DNA of 45,418 nt from Phycisphaerales bacterium (GTDB lineage Bacteria; Planctomycetota; Phycisphaerae; UBA1845), in NCBI GenBank assembly GCA_003597935.1, contig QZJT01000012.1, positions 1-45,418 of the forward strand, in the 5' to 3' direction. Made by a program: the position numbers and the translations under genes. The notes under the pieces are model-generated. The model did not search any database and had not been told where the DNA came from. It saw nothing but the letters and a program-made list of their open reading frames with translations. Numbering within the stretch: position 1 is the stretch's first letter; every line of letters begins with the position of its first letter. This document shows positions 31,360-38,196 of this stretch, piece after piece.

Positions 31360-33993
31360 TCACACCCGATCGCGGAGTTCCTTCAACTTCGCCAGCGCCT
31401 GCATCGGCGTCACCTGGTCGAGATCCAGTTCGCGAAGCGCGACGATGATCTCCTCACCCGGATCCTTGAACAGTTCCAACTGCGGGTCGTTGCGCGTTTT
31501 CTTTTTTCGCAGCTTCGGGCCGTGCGACTCGCGCTGAAAGCCCTGCTGCAGTTCGGCCAGGATCTCCTCGCTGCGGCGCACGACCGGCCTGGGCACGCCG
31601 GCCAGGCGGGCGACGTGGACGCCGTAGCTCTTGTCGGCCGCGCCCTCGACGATGCGGTGCAGGAAGACGATCGCCGGCTCGCCCCCCCCCGACCCGCCGT
31701 CGTGGACCTCGCGCACGGCCACGTTGAAGTTCCGCACGCCGGCCAGCAACTCCGCCAGTTCCGTCAGCTCGTGATAATGGGTGGCGACCAGCGTGCGGCA
31801 GCCGATTCTGGTGGCAATGTGCTCGGTGATCGCCCACGCCAGCGACAGGCCGTCGAACGTGCTGGTGCCGCGGCCGAGTTCGTCCAGGACCACCAGCGAA
31901 TCGCGGGTGGCGTGGTGCAGGATGTTGGCCGCCTCGGTCATCTCGACCATGAACGTCGATTGACCCCGCATGATCTCGTCCGAAGCGCCCACGCGAGCAA
32001 AGATGCGGTCCACCAGCGAGAACGTCATGGCGGCAGCCGGCACGAACGCGCCGGTCTGGGCCAGCAGCGTCAACGCGGCGACCTGGCGGATGTAGGTGCT
32101 TTTTCCGGCCATGTTCGGACCAGTGATGACCAGCACGCGGTCGTCGCGCTCGCCGAAGACGGCGTCGTTGGGCACGAACGACTCGGCCAGAAGCTCGTCC
32201 AGCACCGGGTGCCGCCCGTCGCGGATGACCAGACCCCCCCCGGCGGCGATCTGGGGCCGCACGCACCGCCGCTGCACCGCCCACTCCGCCAGGCCGGCCG
32301 CGCAATCCACGCGGCCGATCGCCTGGGCCGCCCGCAGCAACGCCTGCGTGTGCTCGGCCACCTTGCGGCGGACCTCCTCGAACAGGTCATACTCGAGCTG
32401 GCACGCCCGCTCTTTGGCGGTCAGCACCTCGTCCTCGAACGCCTTCAACTCGTCAGTGATGTAGCGCTCGGCGTTCTTGACCGTCTGCCTCCGCACGTAG
32501 TGGGCGGGCACTTCGCCCTTGAACGCCCGCGAGACCTCGATGTAGTAGCCGAACACCCGGTTGTACGCGACCTTGAGGCCCGTGATGCCGGTCTCGTCGA
32601 TCTGCCGCTTCTGATAATCCGCCAGCCAGCTCTGGCCGTCGCGGCTGATGGCGTAGAGCCGGTCGAGTTCGGCGTGGTAGCCGTCGGCGATGATGCCGCC
32701 CTCGCGGACGGTCGGGGGCGCGTCGTCGCGGATGGCCGAGCGCAGCAGTTCGGCGATGTCGCTCAGCCCCTCCAGCCCCGCGGCCGCTTCCATCAGGAAC
32801 GCCGCCCGGCTTTCCCGCAGCATCGCGGCCAGCGGCGGCAGGGCGTCGAGCGTGCGGCCCAGCGCCTTGACGTCCCGCGGTGACGCCCGACCCAGCGACA
32901 CACGCGACGCGATCCGCTCGACGTCGGCCATGCCGCGCAGCAAGTCGCGCGCCTGGGACCGGGCGGCGTCGGTCTCGGCGAAATACGCGACCGCATCCTG
33001 CCGGGCGGTGATGGCGCCGGCGTCGCGCAGCGGCAGGGCCAGCCAGTGCCTCAGCATCCTCGCCCCCATCGGATGGACCGTCCGGTCCACCGCGGCCAGC
33101 AGGCTGCCCTCACGCCCCCCCCCGCGGATGGTCCGCGTCACCTCCAGCGCCAGCCAGGTGCTGTGGTCGATGCTCACGCAGGCATCGCTGGTGCGCCGGC
33201 CGATCGAGTGGATGTGCTCCAGCCCGGTCTTCTGCGTTTCCTGCAGGTAGTCGATGGCGCAGCCGGCGGCGCAGAGCGAGGCGTCCATGGCGGCGAAACC
33301 GAACCCCGCCAGCGTGGCCACGCCGAAGTGCTTCAGCAGCGCCTGCTCGGCGTTGTAGTCCGACAGCGAGAACTGCGGCCGGCGGCTGACCGCCGCCTGG
33401 GTCGCCTGTTCGACCTGAGCCGCGATCCTGGCGGCCGGTCCGTCGCGCTGATCGTCGATCAGGAGTTCGGCCGGCGCGAGCCTGACGAGTTCGTCCACCA
33501 GCCCCTCGGGCGCCAGCGTGACCACCTCGAACCGCCCGCTGACCAGTTCCACCGTCGCCAGGCCGGCTTCCTTCCCACGAAGGCACACGGCCGCCAGCAG
33601 ATTGTCTTCCTTTTCGTCGAGCAGCGACGCGTCGGTGAGCGTCCCGGCGGTGACGATCCGGGTCACGTCGCGCTTGACTACGCCTTTGGCCTGGCGGGCG
33701 TCTTCCAGTTGCTCCGAGATGGCGACCTTCCGTCCGGCGCCGACCAGCTTCGCCAGGTATTGCTCCAGCGCGTGATAGGGAATCCCCGCCAGCGGGATCG
33801 GGTTTCGTCCCTTGTCGCGGGTGGTCAGGGCGATGCCCAGCAGCCGCGAGCACTCGACCGCGTCTTCGAAGAACGTCTCGTAGAAGTCGCCCATACGGAA
33901 GAGCAGGATCGCGTCTCCGACGCGCTTTTTCTGCTCCACGTACTGACGCATGGCGGGCGTGAGTCTGGCGGCATCCGCATCCGCCGCGTTCAT
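31360..33993 (-). CDS. mutS: DNA mismatch repair protein MutS
   Basis: 877 residues from ATG 33993, the usual MutS length. LLFRMGDFYETFFEDA has the mismatch-reading Phe-x-Glu. ITGPNMAGKSTYIRQVA is Walker A and LVVLDELGRGTSTFDG is Walker B; THYHELTELAE follows. The frame does not stop upstream of ATG 33993: it continues through a 90-bp repeat array into a RAYT domain (to 35571), so gene finders may call one 1403-residue product. Coding-strand G runs of 9, 8 and 9 occur at 31682-31690, 32234-32241 and 33115-33123. No clear Shine-Dalgarno is seen at 33993. Confidence 0.92.
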   Translation of the reverse strand: MNAADADAARLTPAMRQYVEQKKRVGDAILLFRMGDFYETFFEDAVECSRLLGIALTTRDKGRNPIPLAGIPYHALEQYLAKLVGAGRKVAISEQLEDARQAKGVVKRDVTRIVTAGTLTDASLLDEKEDNLLAAVCLRGKEAGLATVELVSGRFEVVTLAPEGLVDELVRLAPAELLIDDQRDGPAARIAAQVEQATQAAVSRRPQFSLSDYNAEQALLKHFGVATLAGFGFAAMDASLCAAGCAIDYLQETQKTGLEHIHSIGRRTSDACVSIDHSTWLALEVTRTIRGGGREGSLLAAVDRTVHPMGARMLRHWLALPLRDAGAITARQDAVAYFAETDAARSQARDLLRGMADVERIASRVSLGRASPRDVKALGRTLDALPPLAAMLRESRAAFLMEAAAGLEGLSDIAELLRSAIRDDAPPTVREGGIIADGYHAELDRLYAISRDGQSWLADYQKRQIDETGITGLKVAYNRVFGYYIEVSRAFKGEVPAHYVRRQTVKNAERYITDELKAFEDEVLTAKERACQLEYDLFEEVRRKVAEHTQALLRAAQAIGRVDCAAGLAEWAVQRRCVRPQIAAGGGLVIRDGRHPVLDELLAESFVPNDAVFGERDDRVLVITGPNMAGKSTYIRQVAALTLLAQTGAFVPAAAMTFSLVDRIFARVGASDEIMRGQSTFMVEMTEAANILHHATRDSLVVLDELGRGTSTFDGLSLAWAITEHIATRIGCRTLVATHYHELTELAELLAGVRNFNVAVREVHDGGSGGGEPAIVFLHRIVEGAADKSYGVHVARLAGVPRPVVRRSEEILAELQQGFQRESHGPKLRKKKTRNDPQLELFKDPGEEIIVALRELDLDQVTPMQALAKLKELRDRV

Positions 33994-34020
33994 CGCGGGG
34001 TGTGCATTCGCCCCCTGAGC

Positions 34021-34038
34021 CCCGCCTTTCAAGGCGGG
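34021..34038 (-). repeat. REP hairpin CCCGCCTT-TC-AAGGCGGG
   Basis: A perfect 8-bp stem preceded by GAGC, between mutS and the large array. It has the same stem as the copy at 146-163. Confidence 0.85.
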
Positions 34039-34098
34039 AGTTTTTCCCGCGGGACGTTCTGTTGTTGATCCACGCTTCCAATGAGTCACATCTCCCCG

Positions 34099-34758
34099 CG
34101 CGGAACTCCCGGCATGAATGCCGGGGCTCGGGGGGGCGGGTTGCGGTTTGTCTGCGGTCGCTGCGGCGTCCGCACGAGGGTCGCCTTGCGCGGAACTCCC
34201 GGCATGAATGCCGGGGCTCGGGGGAGCGGGTTGCGGATTGTCTGCGGTCGCTGCGGCGTCCGCACGAGGGTCGCCTGGCGCGGAACTCCCGGCATGAATG
34301 CCGGGGCTCGGGGGGGCGGGTTGCGGCTTGTCTGCGGTCGCTGCGCCGTCCGCACGAGGGTCGCCTGGCGCGGAACTCCCGGCATGAATGCCGGGGCTCG
34401 GGGGGGCGGGTTGCGGTTTGTCTGTGGTCGCTGCAGCGTGCGCGCGGGGGTCGCCTGGCGCGGAACTCCCGGCATGAATGGCGGGGCTCGGGGGGGCGGG
34501 TTGCGGCTTGTCTGCGGCCGCTGCGGCGTCCGCACGAAGGTCGCCTGGCGCGGAACTCCCGGCATGAATGCCGGGGCTCGGGGGGGCGGGTTGCGGTTTG
34601 TCTGTGGTCGCTGCAGCGTGCGCGCGGGGGTCGCCTAGCGCAGAACTCCCGGCATGAATGCCGGGGCTCGGGGGAGCGGGTTGTGGTTTGTCTGCGATCG
34701 CTGCGGCGTGCGCGCGAGGGCCGCCTGGCGCGGAACTCCCGGCATGAATGCCGGGGCT
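34099..34758 (-). repeat. 90-bp x 8 tandem REP array
   Basis: CCCGGCAT-GA-ATGCCGGG occurs at 34108, 34198, 34288, 34378, 34468, 34558, 34648 and 34738, exactly 90 bp apart, with seven nearly identical ~72-bp spacers of two alternating flavours (GTCCGCACGAGGGTCGCC or GTGCGCGCGGGGGTCGCC). The fifth stem has one mismatch. In the minus frame shared with RAYT and MutS it encodes a 30-residue repeat beginning PGIHAGSSAPGDPR. It is open in several other frames too. Confidence 0.97.
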
Positions 34759-35571
34759 ATGAGATGCGCCGGTACGGCTGTCAGTACGTGGATGTGCCTG
34801 CTGAAAATTGTTGGGAACGGGGGCGTGAAACCCAAGCGACGCCAGCACGTACTCCTGGTTCCGCACGTAGTCCATCGCGTGTCCAATCGCCCCGGTGTTG
34901 GGCAGGAGCCTCTTCGATCCGCCTGAGGTCCACCAGGACCCCGATGCCTGCTTTCCGAACCGCTGGCCGAGCCGCCGAGCGGACACGCCCTTGAACAGTT
35001 GCAGCAGTCGAGGCCCTTCGATTTCGGGGGACGTGACGACGAGGTGAACGTGGTTCGCCATGACGGCCCCGATCCGGATGTCCAGGTCGTGCGTCTTGGC
35101 GACTTCGCAGAGCGCATCGGCGCACGCCTCAGCTTGGTCCTCCGTCAAGCGAACCGGCGGCCCCTGGAGTTTCCGAGCGGCGGCCGAGCGGCGCCACGGC
35201 AGGTCGGCATCATAAGTCTCGCCCGGTTGGTTGTGGATGATATAGCGGTCCCGGCCCACGGGGACATAGCCCACGAACCCCCGCTCATCTCCCGGCAACC
35301 AGTTGCCGCGCGTCGTCCACGTGAGCAGGTAGGTACCGCCGCGACCCCGTGCGGTCTTCTCACCGTCGCCATCATCAACAGAGTGCTTTTCGGAGCCCCG
35401 CCATTCATGGCGGGCGGTCTTCACGGCGTCGTCGTCGTTGCGATCGCCCGGAGCACATCGCGGAGGTTCACGCGTTACACGCCCGGCTTCCGCCCCGCAT
35501 GAATGCGGGGGCTCTGAGGCGGCGTCCGCCATCGCACGGGGTGGGATATCGTCCAACGGGCTGGTCATCAA
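34759..35571 (-). CDS. REP-associated tyrosine transposase (RAYT), open into mutS
   Basis: A Y1/IS200-like HUH enzyme expected to nick and join single-stranded DNA at REP hairpins. TYLLTWTTRGNWLPGDERGF is the RAYT opening motif, NHVHLVVTSP holds the metal-binding His-x-His (codons near 35044-35052), and HAMDYVRNQEYVL holds the candidate nucleophile Tyr (codon 34867-34869 or 34849-34851). The domain covers roughly 34800-35335. GTG 35424 is a plausible start; ATG 35571 is the longest. Hairpins at 35397 and 35493 are encoded in the N-terminus. No stop follows the domain: the frame enters the 90-bp array and MutS. The listed left boundary is the array edge, not a stop codon. Confidence 0.8.
35397..35414 (-). 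repeat. REP hairpin CCCGCCAT-TC-ATGGCGGG
   Basis: A perfect 8-bp stem preceded by GAGC, at the 5' part of the RAYT frame. Confidence 0.85.
35493..35510 (-). repeat. REP hairpin CCCCGCAT-GA-ATGCGGGG
   Basis: A perfect 8-bp stem followed by GGCTC on the plus strand, ~80 bp upstream of the previous hairpin. Together they bracket the RAYT with the array on the other side. Confidence 0.85.
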
Positions 35572-35586
35572 CTCCCTACCATACTG

Positions 35587-37071
35587 CTAACGCTCCGTCC
35601 GATCCAGCCGCTCGATGCAGCGGAACACCGCGTCGCGGGCGGCGGCCGCCCGCGGGTCGATGCCGATGCCCACCCGGGTGCGGTTGAGGACGTAGGCGAA
35701 GCCCAGCCGCCGCGACGGGTCGGCGAAGCCCAGCGAGCCGCCGGCGCCGGCCGCGCCGTAGGCACTGGAGTCGTCGCTGAACCGGAACGTGGACGTGGAC
35801 TTCATGAAACCCAGCGAATAGAGCGTATCCACCTTCAGCACCACGTCCTTCGCGCCCTTCGGCGGGACCTTCGCCGCAGCCGCCAGTTCCGCCAGCGTAT
35901 CGCGACGAATCCCCAGACTCACGGCGTGGGGACCCAATGCCCGCGGGGACGGATCACCCGGCGGCCGGGCCGGCGCCGATGCCTCACCTGCGTCCAGCAT
36001 GGGCTCCCCGGGTTGCCGGGCAATCCCGCCAGGCGCCGGATAGGCGTGGCCGCCGTTGGCAAAAGCGCCGTACATCGCGGCGATCGCCCGGGCGGTGCCG
36101 ATGCCGTTGGCGGCCGGGAATTCGACCGCGCGGTACTCGGGCGTATCGAAGTCGGCGAGCGAGTTCACGCGCGGGTTCGTCAGCGCCCGCCGGGGGATCG
36201 TGTGCGGCCACAGCATGGACCAGGCGAACTCGGGCGGGACGATGTCCAGGTGTCGGAAGACGTCCCAGATGTCAAACGGGATGACGTTCGCGACGCGCGA
36301 GCGATCGACGCTGTCCGGCAGGCCGACGTGGAACTCAACCTCCAGCGGGCCGGCGAGTTCTTCCCGCACGAATCGTCCGATGCTGCGGTGCTGCGGATCC
36401 ACGCGGCGGATCAGCTCGGCCTCGTACCAGCCCAGGCTCAAGGCGTGGTAGCCGTGCCGGGAACCGGGCGGCCACAGCGGCCGCTGGGCGGCGGCGATCC
36501 GAGCGACCGCGCTGCCGTCCGCGATCTTCCCCCAGTCCAGTCGCTCGTCGATCGCGCACAGGCCCGCCTGGTGGGCGAGCAACTGCCGCACGCTGATCGT
36601 ACCCTTACCGTGGGCGGCGAACTCGGGCCAGTAGCGGGCGACGGGGGCGTCGTAGTCCAGCCAGCCGCGCGAATGGGCCAGCGCCAGGGCCAGTCCGCAG
36701 ATGCCCTTGGTCGCCGAGAACACCATCACCATCGTGTCCGCGGTCCACGCGTCGCCGGTGCTCTGATCGCGCACGCCGCCCCACAGATCGACGACCAGCT
36801 CTCCGCGGTAGTAGGCCGCGCACGCAGCCCCGACCTCGCCACGACGGGCGAAGTTCTCCGCGAATGCCCCGCGCACCTCCTCGAAGCCGGGCGCGACGTA
36901 GCCGTGGACGATCGAGTGGTCGACGCCGCCCGTCCGCGGCGCCGTGCGGCATCCGGCCGCAGCGGACAGCAGCGCCGCCATCGTGCAGGTCACGGCCCAC
37001 CGGGCCGTGACCTGCCGTCCAGCGGCCACGTACGAGGTCCGGTTCGCGTTCCAACGATCCGTCCGGTACAC
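35587..37071 (-). CDS. Beta-lactamase-fold serine hydrolase lipoprotein
   Basis: A 494-codon frame of the class C / EstB-like serine hydrolase family (PF00144 type). The catalytic Ser-x-x-Lys is FSATKG (Ser119, Lys122); the Tyr motif is GYHALS (Tyr208); a GAGGSLGF segment replaces the KTG box. Members are esterases or peptidases more often than beta-lactamases. A lipobox (LLSAAAGC) near residue 41 predicts an envelope lipoprotein. The longest start is GTG 37071; a GTG inside the perfect hairpin at 36985-37015 gives a shorter signal. An Ala/Pro-rich insert lies near 365-385. Confidence 0.85.
   Translation of the reverse strand: MYRTDRWNANRTSYVAAGRQVTARWAVTCTMAALLSAAAGCRTAPRTGGVDHSIVHGYVAPGFEEVRGAFAENFARRGEVGAACAAYYRGELVVDLWGGVRDQSTGDAWTADTMVMVFSATKGICGLALALAHSRGWLDYDAPVARYWPEFAAHGKGTISVRQLLAHQAGLCAIDERLDWGKIADGSAVARIAAAQRPLWPPGSRHGYHALSLGWYEAELIRRVDPQHRSIGRFVREELAGPLEVEFHVGLPDSVDRSRVANVIPFDIWDVFRHLDIVPPEFAWSMLWPHTIPRRALTNPRVNSLADFDTPEYRAVEFPAANGIGTARAIAAMYGAFANGGHAYPAPGGIARQPGEPMLDAGEASAPARPPGDPSPRALGPHAVSLGIRRDTLAELAAAAKVPPKGAKDVVLKVDTLYSLGFMKSTSTFRFSDDSSAYGAAGAGGSLGFADPSRRLGFAYVLNRTRVGIGIDPRAAAARDAVFRCIERLDRTER
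36985..37015 (-). repeat. Perfect 14-bp hairpin at the 5' end of the serine hydrolase gene
   Basis: GCAGGTCACGGCCC (36985-36998) and GGGCCGTGACCTGC (37002-37015) pair perfectly around a 3-base loop. It does not follow the GAGCC-stem-TC plan of the REPs. On the mRNA it covers a possible GTG start. Confidence 0.85.
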
Positions 37072-37191
37072 ACAGTGACTCCACCGAGCGCGACGGGAGC
37101 ACGGCGCCCGTCGCTGTCGTCTTCACAGGACCAAGCGGCGTAGCGTATCTGCCTGCGCCGCGAACGCCATGCCGGGCGGCGCCCGGACCCG

Positions 37192-37209
37192 CCCGGCATG
37201 AATGCCGGG
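37192..37209 (+). repeat. REP hairpin CCCGGCAT-GA-ATGCCGGG
   Basis: A perfect 8-bp stem followed by GGCTCTGG, in the divergent gap before scpB. The same stem is in the 90-bp array. Confidence 0.85.
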
Positions 37210-37250
37210 GCTCTGGTGAGGCGCGGGAGTGCCGCGACGGTCCGGTCCTG

Positions 37251-37279
37251 TCGTCAGACACGACGCCGGCGATTAGAAT
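37251..37279 (+). promoter_or_regulatory. Leaderless-type promoter of scpB
   Basis: TCGTCA (37251-37256), 17 bp, and TAGAAT (37274-37279), then 8 nt to ATG 37288. There is no Shine-Dalgarno, so the mRNA is probably leaderless. Confidence 0.5.
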
Positions 37280-37287
37280 CCGCCGCC

Positions 37288-38196
37288 ATGAGCCGCAAGA
37301 AGGTTATCTCCCAGGAGCCGCAATGGGCCGGACAGGATTCGCTCGGTGAAGAGTTGCTGTCGCCGACCAACTCCGGCGGTCTCGACACCGATGATGGTTG
37401 GGCGACCCCACCCGGCGGTCCGCCTGAAGAGGACTGTGAGGAACACGGATTCTGCGAGGAGCACGAAGATCGCCCTGAGGGTGAACACCGCGAGGAGCAT
37501 GAGGTTTGCGAGGCGCACGAGGTTGGCCGGGAACTCGAGGTCCGCAACGACTGCGAGGAGCAAACACAGCGCGAGGAGCGGGGGGGCGAAGCAACCCTCG
37601 ACGCCGGCGGGAACATCACGGCCGAGTCCGTCATCGAGGCGATCCTCTTCGCCACCGACAAACCCATCCCCGCCCGCCGGCTGGCCCAACTGCTGGGCAT
37701 CGGCGACGGCAACGACGTCCGCCGCCACGTCGCCGCCCTCAACGAGCGGTACGAGCAGACCGGAGCGTCGTTCCGCATCGAGATGATCGCCAAGGGATTC
37801 CAGATGCTGACCCTCCCCGTCTTCGACCGGTGGATCGGCAAGCTGGTCAAGTCGCGCAAGGAGTCCCGCCTGTCGCCGGCCGCGCTGGAGACGCTGGCCG
37901 TGGTCGCCTACAAGCAGCCGGTGATGCGGGCCGAGATTGAGTCGATCCGCGGGGTGGCCGGTGGCGACGTGCTCGCCCGGCTGCGGGAGATGAAACTGGT
38001 GACGATCGTCGGCCGGGCCGAGGAGGTCGGCCGCCCGCTCCTGTACGGCACCACCAACCGCTTCCTGGAAGTCTTCGGGCTGTCGTCCCTGAAGGACCTG
38101 CCGCAGGTGGACGAACTCAAGCCGCCGGAGCCGCTGCTGAAGAAGCCGCGGCTGGTCGAAGAAGTCGCGGACGAGATCTCAGACGCCGACGGCTGA
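37288..38196 (+). CDS. scpB: Segregation and condensation protein B
   Basis: ScpB is the winged-helix partner of ScpA in the SMC condensin complex that compacts and segregates the chromosome. ITAESVIEAILFATDKPIPA opens the first winged helix; SPAALETLAVVAYKQPVMRA and RPLLYGTTNRFLEVFGL belong to the second. The 302-residue product has a ~105-residue N-terminal extension, very Glu/His/Arg-rich with four Cys (EEHGFCEEHEDRPEGEHREE), built from degenerate GCGAGGAGCACGAGG units. ScpA is not adjacent. The next gene starts 6 nt after the stop. Confidence 0.9.
   Translation: MSRKKVISQEPQWAGQDSLGEELLSPTNSGGLDTDDGWATPPGGPPEEDCEEHGFCEEHEDRPEGEHREEHEVCEAHEVGRELEVRNDCEEQTQREERGGEATLDAGGNITAESVIEAILFATDKPIPARRLAQLLGIGDGNDVRRHVAALNERYEQTGASFRIEMIAKGFQMLTLPVFDRWIGKLVKSRKESRLSPAALETLAVVAYKQPVMRAEIESIRGVAGGDVLARLREMKLVTIVGRAEEVGRPLLYGTTNRFLEVFGLSSLKDLPQVDELKPPEPLLKKPRLVEEVADEISDADG

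Follow-up and report, generated by a model that had tools for sequence, protein, structure and literature searches.

Class 3 TnpAY1 REPtrons encode an HUH-Y1 protein found mainly in Planctomycetes, with an extended conserved N-terminus and high-copy flanking hairpins that carry a CnGA foot, and have been described as ordinary genes (PMC6006769). Palindromes can also reside inside genes: the palindromic elements of Rickettsia, like other REPs within genes, lie in frame and are translated as part of housekeeping genes, tRNA synthetase and repair genes among them (PMC10969869, PMC3733652), and are short and non-autonomous, contributing up to ~82 residues (PMC3733652). IStrons are mobile elements tolerated in important genes, from which they are spliced out (PMC4227781), and inteins are likewise tolerated and spliced out.

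Here we describe a locus from a Phycisphaerales bacterium (GCA_003597935.1, contig QZJT01000012.1, 45,418 nucleotides; hereafter the window), in which a RAYT (Y1/HUH transposase), eight REP hairpins and a complete MutS form one open reading frame on the minus strand, from 35568 to 31360 (Table 1). The locus shares with class 3 REPtrons the HUH-Y1 core, the flanking high-copy hairpins and the CnGA foot, and with intragenic palindromic elements such as those of Rickettsia the presence of palindromes in frame within a conserved gene. Unlike the former, its RAYT is embedded in a host frame and possesses neither its own start nor its own stop; unlike the latter, it also nests a transposase domain with intact catalytic residues; and unlike IStrons and inteins, it showed no splicing element. 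In the open-access papers searched, which represent only a part of the literature, in-gene REPs are known, but no in-frame nested RAYT gene was found. The sequence comparisons below make it probable that a class 3 REPtron, inserted in frame where mutS encodes its variable N-terminal tail, is translated as part of MutS.

Gene organisation and translation starts

An earlier note on this DNA had described RAYT, eight repeats and complete MutS as one stop-free frame of 1403 codons from TTG 35571, and this description holds, with the Pfam domains intact. The frame is open from 35586, limited upstream by a TAG at 35587, and closes with a stop codon at 31360-31362 on the minus strand. ATG 35568 adjoins TTG 35571, yields 1402 codons and is the better candidate for the start.

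Table 1. Features of the RAYT-REP-MutS frame in the window.
Feature	Position	Strand	Evidence or remark
Single ORF: short N-terminal tail, REP1/REP2, RAYT, REP array, terminal REP, MutS	31360..35568 including stop codon	-	no in-frame stop
Shine-Dalgarno-like AGGGAG, 3 nt 5' of ATG 35568	35572..35577	-	anti-SD duplex -7.4 kcal/mol; short spacing
Putative native MutS N-terminal tail (MTSPLDDIPPRAMADAAS), before inserted element	35515..35568	-	deduced from relatives' variable tails
REP1 hairpin, CAGA foot	35493..35510	-	sequence
REP2 hairpin, CGGA foot, opposite orientation	35397..35414	+	sequence
RAYT (Y1/HUH transposase) domain	34843..35334	-	no own start codon ≤30 codons upstream
HUH motif (HVH)	35044..35052	-	histidines invariant in alignments
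Catalytic tyrosine (MDYVRNQ)	34867..34869	-	alignments
REP array of eight in-frame hairpins, spaced at exactly 90 bp; encoded unit SPGIHAGSSAPGDPRADAAATADKPQPAPP	34098..34758	-	
Terminal REP hairpin (CCCGCCTTTCAAGGCGGG), CTGA foot, orientation opposite to array	34021..34038	+	
Small REP-like hairpin CCGCG-ATGAA-CGCGG, loop contains Met 33993	33984..33998	-	sequence; anti-SD -2.4 kcal/mol
MutS1 body, LTPAMRQY to C-terminus	31363..33963	-	Pfam, NCBIfam

We infer that 35568 is the native mutS start: in relatives, MutS carries a variable tail, often of 20-40 residues, ahead of LTPAMRQY. The gene upstream of mutS, checked to fix this start, is not syntenic in relatives and so gives the position no independent support. 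Because the RAYT is N-terminal in mutS, MutS could also initiate internally, possibly at GTG 34089, which has a strong Shine-Dalgarno-like sequence (-7.9 kcal/mol) at a spacing of just 2 nt, or at Met 33993, the start assumed in the earlier note, which has no Shine-Dalgarno sequence upstream (anti-SD -2.4 kcal/mol). Elsewhere in the window, a REP loop (37191-37209) provides the ATG of a mechanical ORF at 37198-38196 (N-terminus MNAGALVRRG), the true start of which therefore probably lies further downstream.

Domains of the predicted protein

Pfam places Y1_Tnp (PF01797) at residues 142-216 of the window ORF (34.6 bits), and the RAYT scores 34.7 bits against NCBIfam REP_Tyr_transpos, under the cut-off of 80 bits. 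An AF2 model of the domain reached a pLDDT of 88, and its Foldseek matches were IS200 transposases and RAYT 4er8 (E about 1e-5). The HVH and YVRNQ motifs are kept in the window RAYT, and HUH and Tyr are also kept in nested RAYTs of other genes (see below); the Y-motif spacing is Y---Q in the clade of the window RAYT and Y----Q in the AlaRS-nested clade. MutS domains I-V are all present at residues 538-1342, and the ORF scores 953 bits against NCBIfam mutS1, far over the cut-off. The window protein thus shares with MutS1 (TIGR01070 / NF003810) the complete domain set, and differs from it by about 535 extra in-frame residues 5' of the conserved start.

REP hairpins and the repeat array

The mutS frame runs without a stop through every one of these palindromes (REP1, REP2, the eight hairpins of the array and the terminal REP), which would accordingly be translated. 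The CnGA foot is present in 17/18 hairpins of this REP family in the window, against a background of 7.6%, and the genome holds 132 copies of the REP core; G016, the genome with the closest nested RAYT, has no copy of the exact window REP, so this comparison gave no evidence of REP-RAYT pairing across genomes. The array consists of seven full 30-residue units and a partial eighth. Examined for a sign of selection, its codons showed 13 synonymous differences and 14 non-synonymous ones, where a synonymous share of 0.27 is expected.

Array periods inside host frames are such as 90, 93, 39, 42, 21, 24, 69 and 18 bp, whereas those outside host frames include 28, 29, 31, 32 and 55 bp; most in-frame arrays are divisible by three and arrays elsewhere often are not. 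An exception is a ValRS frame (L173:1152-1235, genome G038) with 8- and 16-bp repeats inside it. The earlier note had pointed to the divisibility of the 90-bp period by three and proposed an adjustable linker: the spacing is indeed exact and in frame, but we take it as a mark of selection against frameshifts more readily than of design.

Openness of the frame in the window alone

In dinucleotide shuffles, the RAYT-to-MutS linker stayed free of stops in ~31% of cases; by component, the figure was 96% for one array unit and 77% and 42% for the two unique parts. Multiplied by 1/3 for frame agreement, this gives a probability of ~0.10 for such a link under chance, judged on the window alone. An array unit is open in 5/6 frames, so that openness of the array says little. 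These figures, together with the Shine-Dalgarno-like sequence at GTG 34089, speak for a chance alignment in which a free-standing RAYT lies upstream of mutS in stop-free, GC-rich DNA and MutS is made from its own start at 33993 or 34089. Fortuitous open frames do occur: in one GC-rich locus (L177), a RAYT is joined by chance to the antisense reading of a different gene in an open frame of 1133 codons, and we rejected it as a nested RAYT despite its long frame. In the window, no ATG, GTG or TTG lies within 30 codons upstream of the RAYT, unlike in free-standing RAYTs, and a start at ATG 35568 gives the RAYT no stop. Furthermore, this genome also encodes three free-standing Y1 transposases, and their frames span just 205-286 aa.

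Nested RAYTs in related genomes

A survey of relatives for RAYT-mutS adjacency, as proposed in the earlier note, returned no RAYT in the mutS loci read, and RAYT-MutS was found solely in the window's genome among 60. Homologues of the window RAYT in the same order were in many cases embedded in frames of 800-1700 codons (RAYT search). The hosts were PurH (5 genomes), ValRS (4), LeuRS (1), AlaRS (12, one of which has two RAYTs) and an MmeI-type enzyme (1), with G065 PurH, G011 PurH and G043 AlaRS identified from translation reading only; family searches showed host homology on both sides of the RAYT in all five kinds of host. In total, at least 24/100 genomes of this planctomycete order carry a nested RAYT. 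As a control, 101 genomes of the order were searched with Y1_Tnp, and none of the best 150 matches had a frame above 417 aa; in 118 other genomes of the phylum, the frames of 45/47 matches did not exceed 350 aa.

The same site in PurH is occupied by RAYTs from a second family (class-2-like, MPDHVHLLLTP) in five genomes. One of these is the genome of the window, which thus has two nested RAYTs from different families; the one in PurH (L146, G000:C140; PurH profile position 268/269) lies in a purH split by a contig end inside a repeat array. Several further loci were observed. One 1686-codon AlaRS frame (L152, G048:C11) holds two nested RAYTs at different sites, and purH of G083 (L150) encodes a REP-coded peptide without a RAYT at the PurH site, where the same-genus G059 has one. 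In a Planctomycetaceae genome (L084:4450-6165), a RAYT that retains its own ATG is followed by an in-frame EpmA-like class II synthetase domain. Unusually long synthetase frames of 1266 codons in G042 (C1:2949490-2952696) and G046 (C1:3680820-3684029) suggest further in-frame inserts. Outside the order, within the same phylum, a RAYT is nested in an adenine methyltransferase (L178, G180:C11) in a genome of 43% GC, and nesting is therefore not a high-GC artefact.

The same arrangement in unrelated essential genes cannot be chance. The suspicion in the earlier note that the frame could be fortuitous was thus reasonable on the window alone, but comparison with relatives makes a chance origin unlikely, and for the mutS locus we regard a free-standing RAYT beside an independently started MutS as an outside, if not negligible, prospect.

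Probable translation as one chain

G042 and G046 are single-contig genomes, 96-97% complete, and in both the sole full purH is interrupted, without stops; in the AlaRS-nested genomes examined, AlaRS is likewise single-copy and interrupted. As these are the only copies, the insert must be compatible with making these essential enzymes, and where the RAYT lies in the interior of its host (PurH, AlaRS, ValRS), the genetics leave hardly any alternative to translation as one chain. For mutS, such translation is likely.

Harmless-looking insertion in essential genes resembles that of inteins and IStrons, and would also be expected if the insert were removed from the RNA (as an IStron or intron) or from the protein (as an intein), leaving a normal MutS. 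An Rfam scan of eight sources, the window among them, returned no intron of group I or II, and Pfam scans showed solely Y1_Tnp and host domains, with no Hint/intein domain. The insert is frame-keeping and stop-free, which RNA splicing does not need, and its junctions are variable REP peptides instead of fixed splice residues; we therefore hold a spliced element to be very improbable. Nested RAYTs translated within their hosts would in effect be splice-less counterparts of inteins.

Dependence on the host frame, selection and ancestry

An ATG lies ≤15 codons upstream of the domain in 2/25 nested RAYTs versus 26/30 free-standing RAYTs (Fisher p = 2.4e-9), and the remaining 4/30 free-standing RAYTs have a GTG. 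Nested RAYTs have no stop of their own, whereas free-standing RAYTs end soon after the domain. Between G042 and G046, dN/dS was 0.13 for the RAYT in PurH and 0.12 for the C-terminal host part, and between the window RAYT and the MmeI-nested RAYT it was 0.18; nested RAYTs thus evolve under purifying selection. An AF2 model of a PurH-RAYT fusion, built from three sequences, had a pLDDT of 36.

In a quick RAYT tree, some branches of which are weakly supported, nested RAYTs group into a few clades, and a single clade can span several hosts: MutS and MmeI; PurH, ValRS and LeuRS; AlaRS and ValRS. Different hosts within one clade imply either frame-keeping moves between genes or independent entries by the same lineage. 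On balance, we lean towards several RAYT lineages of this order being frame-nested, i.e. having lost their own start and stop, translated only within unspliced host housekeeping proteins and moving between genes in frame.

Purifying selection on the RAYT, and the fact that RAYT and MutS both act on DNA, would also suit a functional fusion, in which the usefulness of the combination would explain why a REP nickase is tethered to the mismatch sensor, with the array as an adjustable linker, as the earlier note had envisaged for the read-through product. The same RAYT families are nested in AlaRS, ValRS, LeuRS, PurH and an MmeI-type restriction-modification enzyme, and RAYT-MutS is confined to a single genome among the 60, so we find such a purpose-built fusion hard to credit; MutS is probably one permissive host, because the same kind of element is found in all these genes. 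What stands of that proposal is the single RAYT-REP-MutS polypeptide, which is well, if indirectly, supported: in-frame nested RAYTs recur in unrelated genes, and no start lies just upstream of this RAYT. A full-length MutS of ~150 kDa is predicted to be made and functional.

Under the favoured reading, a class 3 REPtron (RAYT and REPs) would have entered the variable N-terminal tail of mutS in frame, and a single polypeptide would run from the mutS start at ATG 35568 to the mutS stop. The REPs would code for flexible linker peptides, and we propose that MutS and the small HUH domain would therefore each be able to fold. The element would obtain the promoter, start and stop of its host, which could neither lose nor frameshift it without harm to an important gene, a location that would benefit the element.

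Implications

If true, these findings would represent a new mode of transposase persistence, inside the frames of genes that the cell cannot lose, with promoter, start and stop borrowed from the host and REP-coded linkers that spare the host fold. The cases also show that essential enzymes, e.g. AlaRS and PurH, can accommodate an additional domain of foreign origin, about 160 residues long. Such proteins may be labelled transposases or pseudogenes, a warning for annotation. The question of how RAYTs and REPs persist and spread would also become directly testable.
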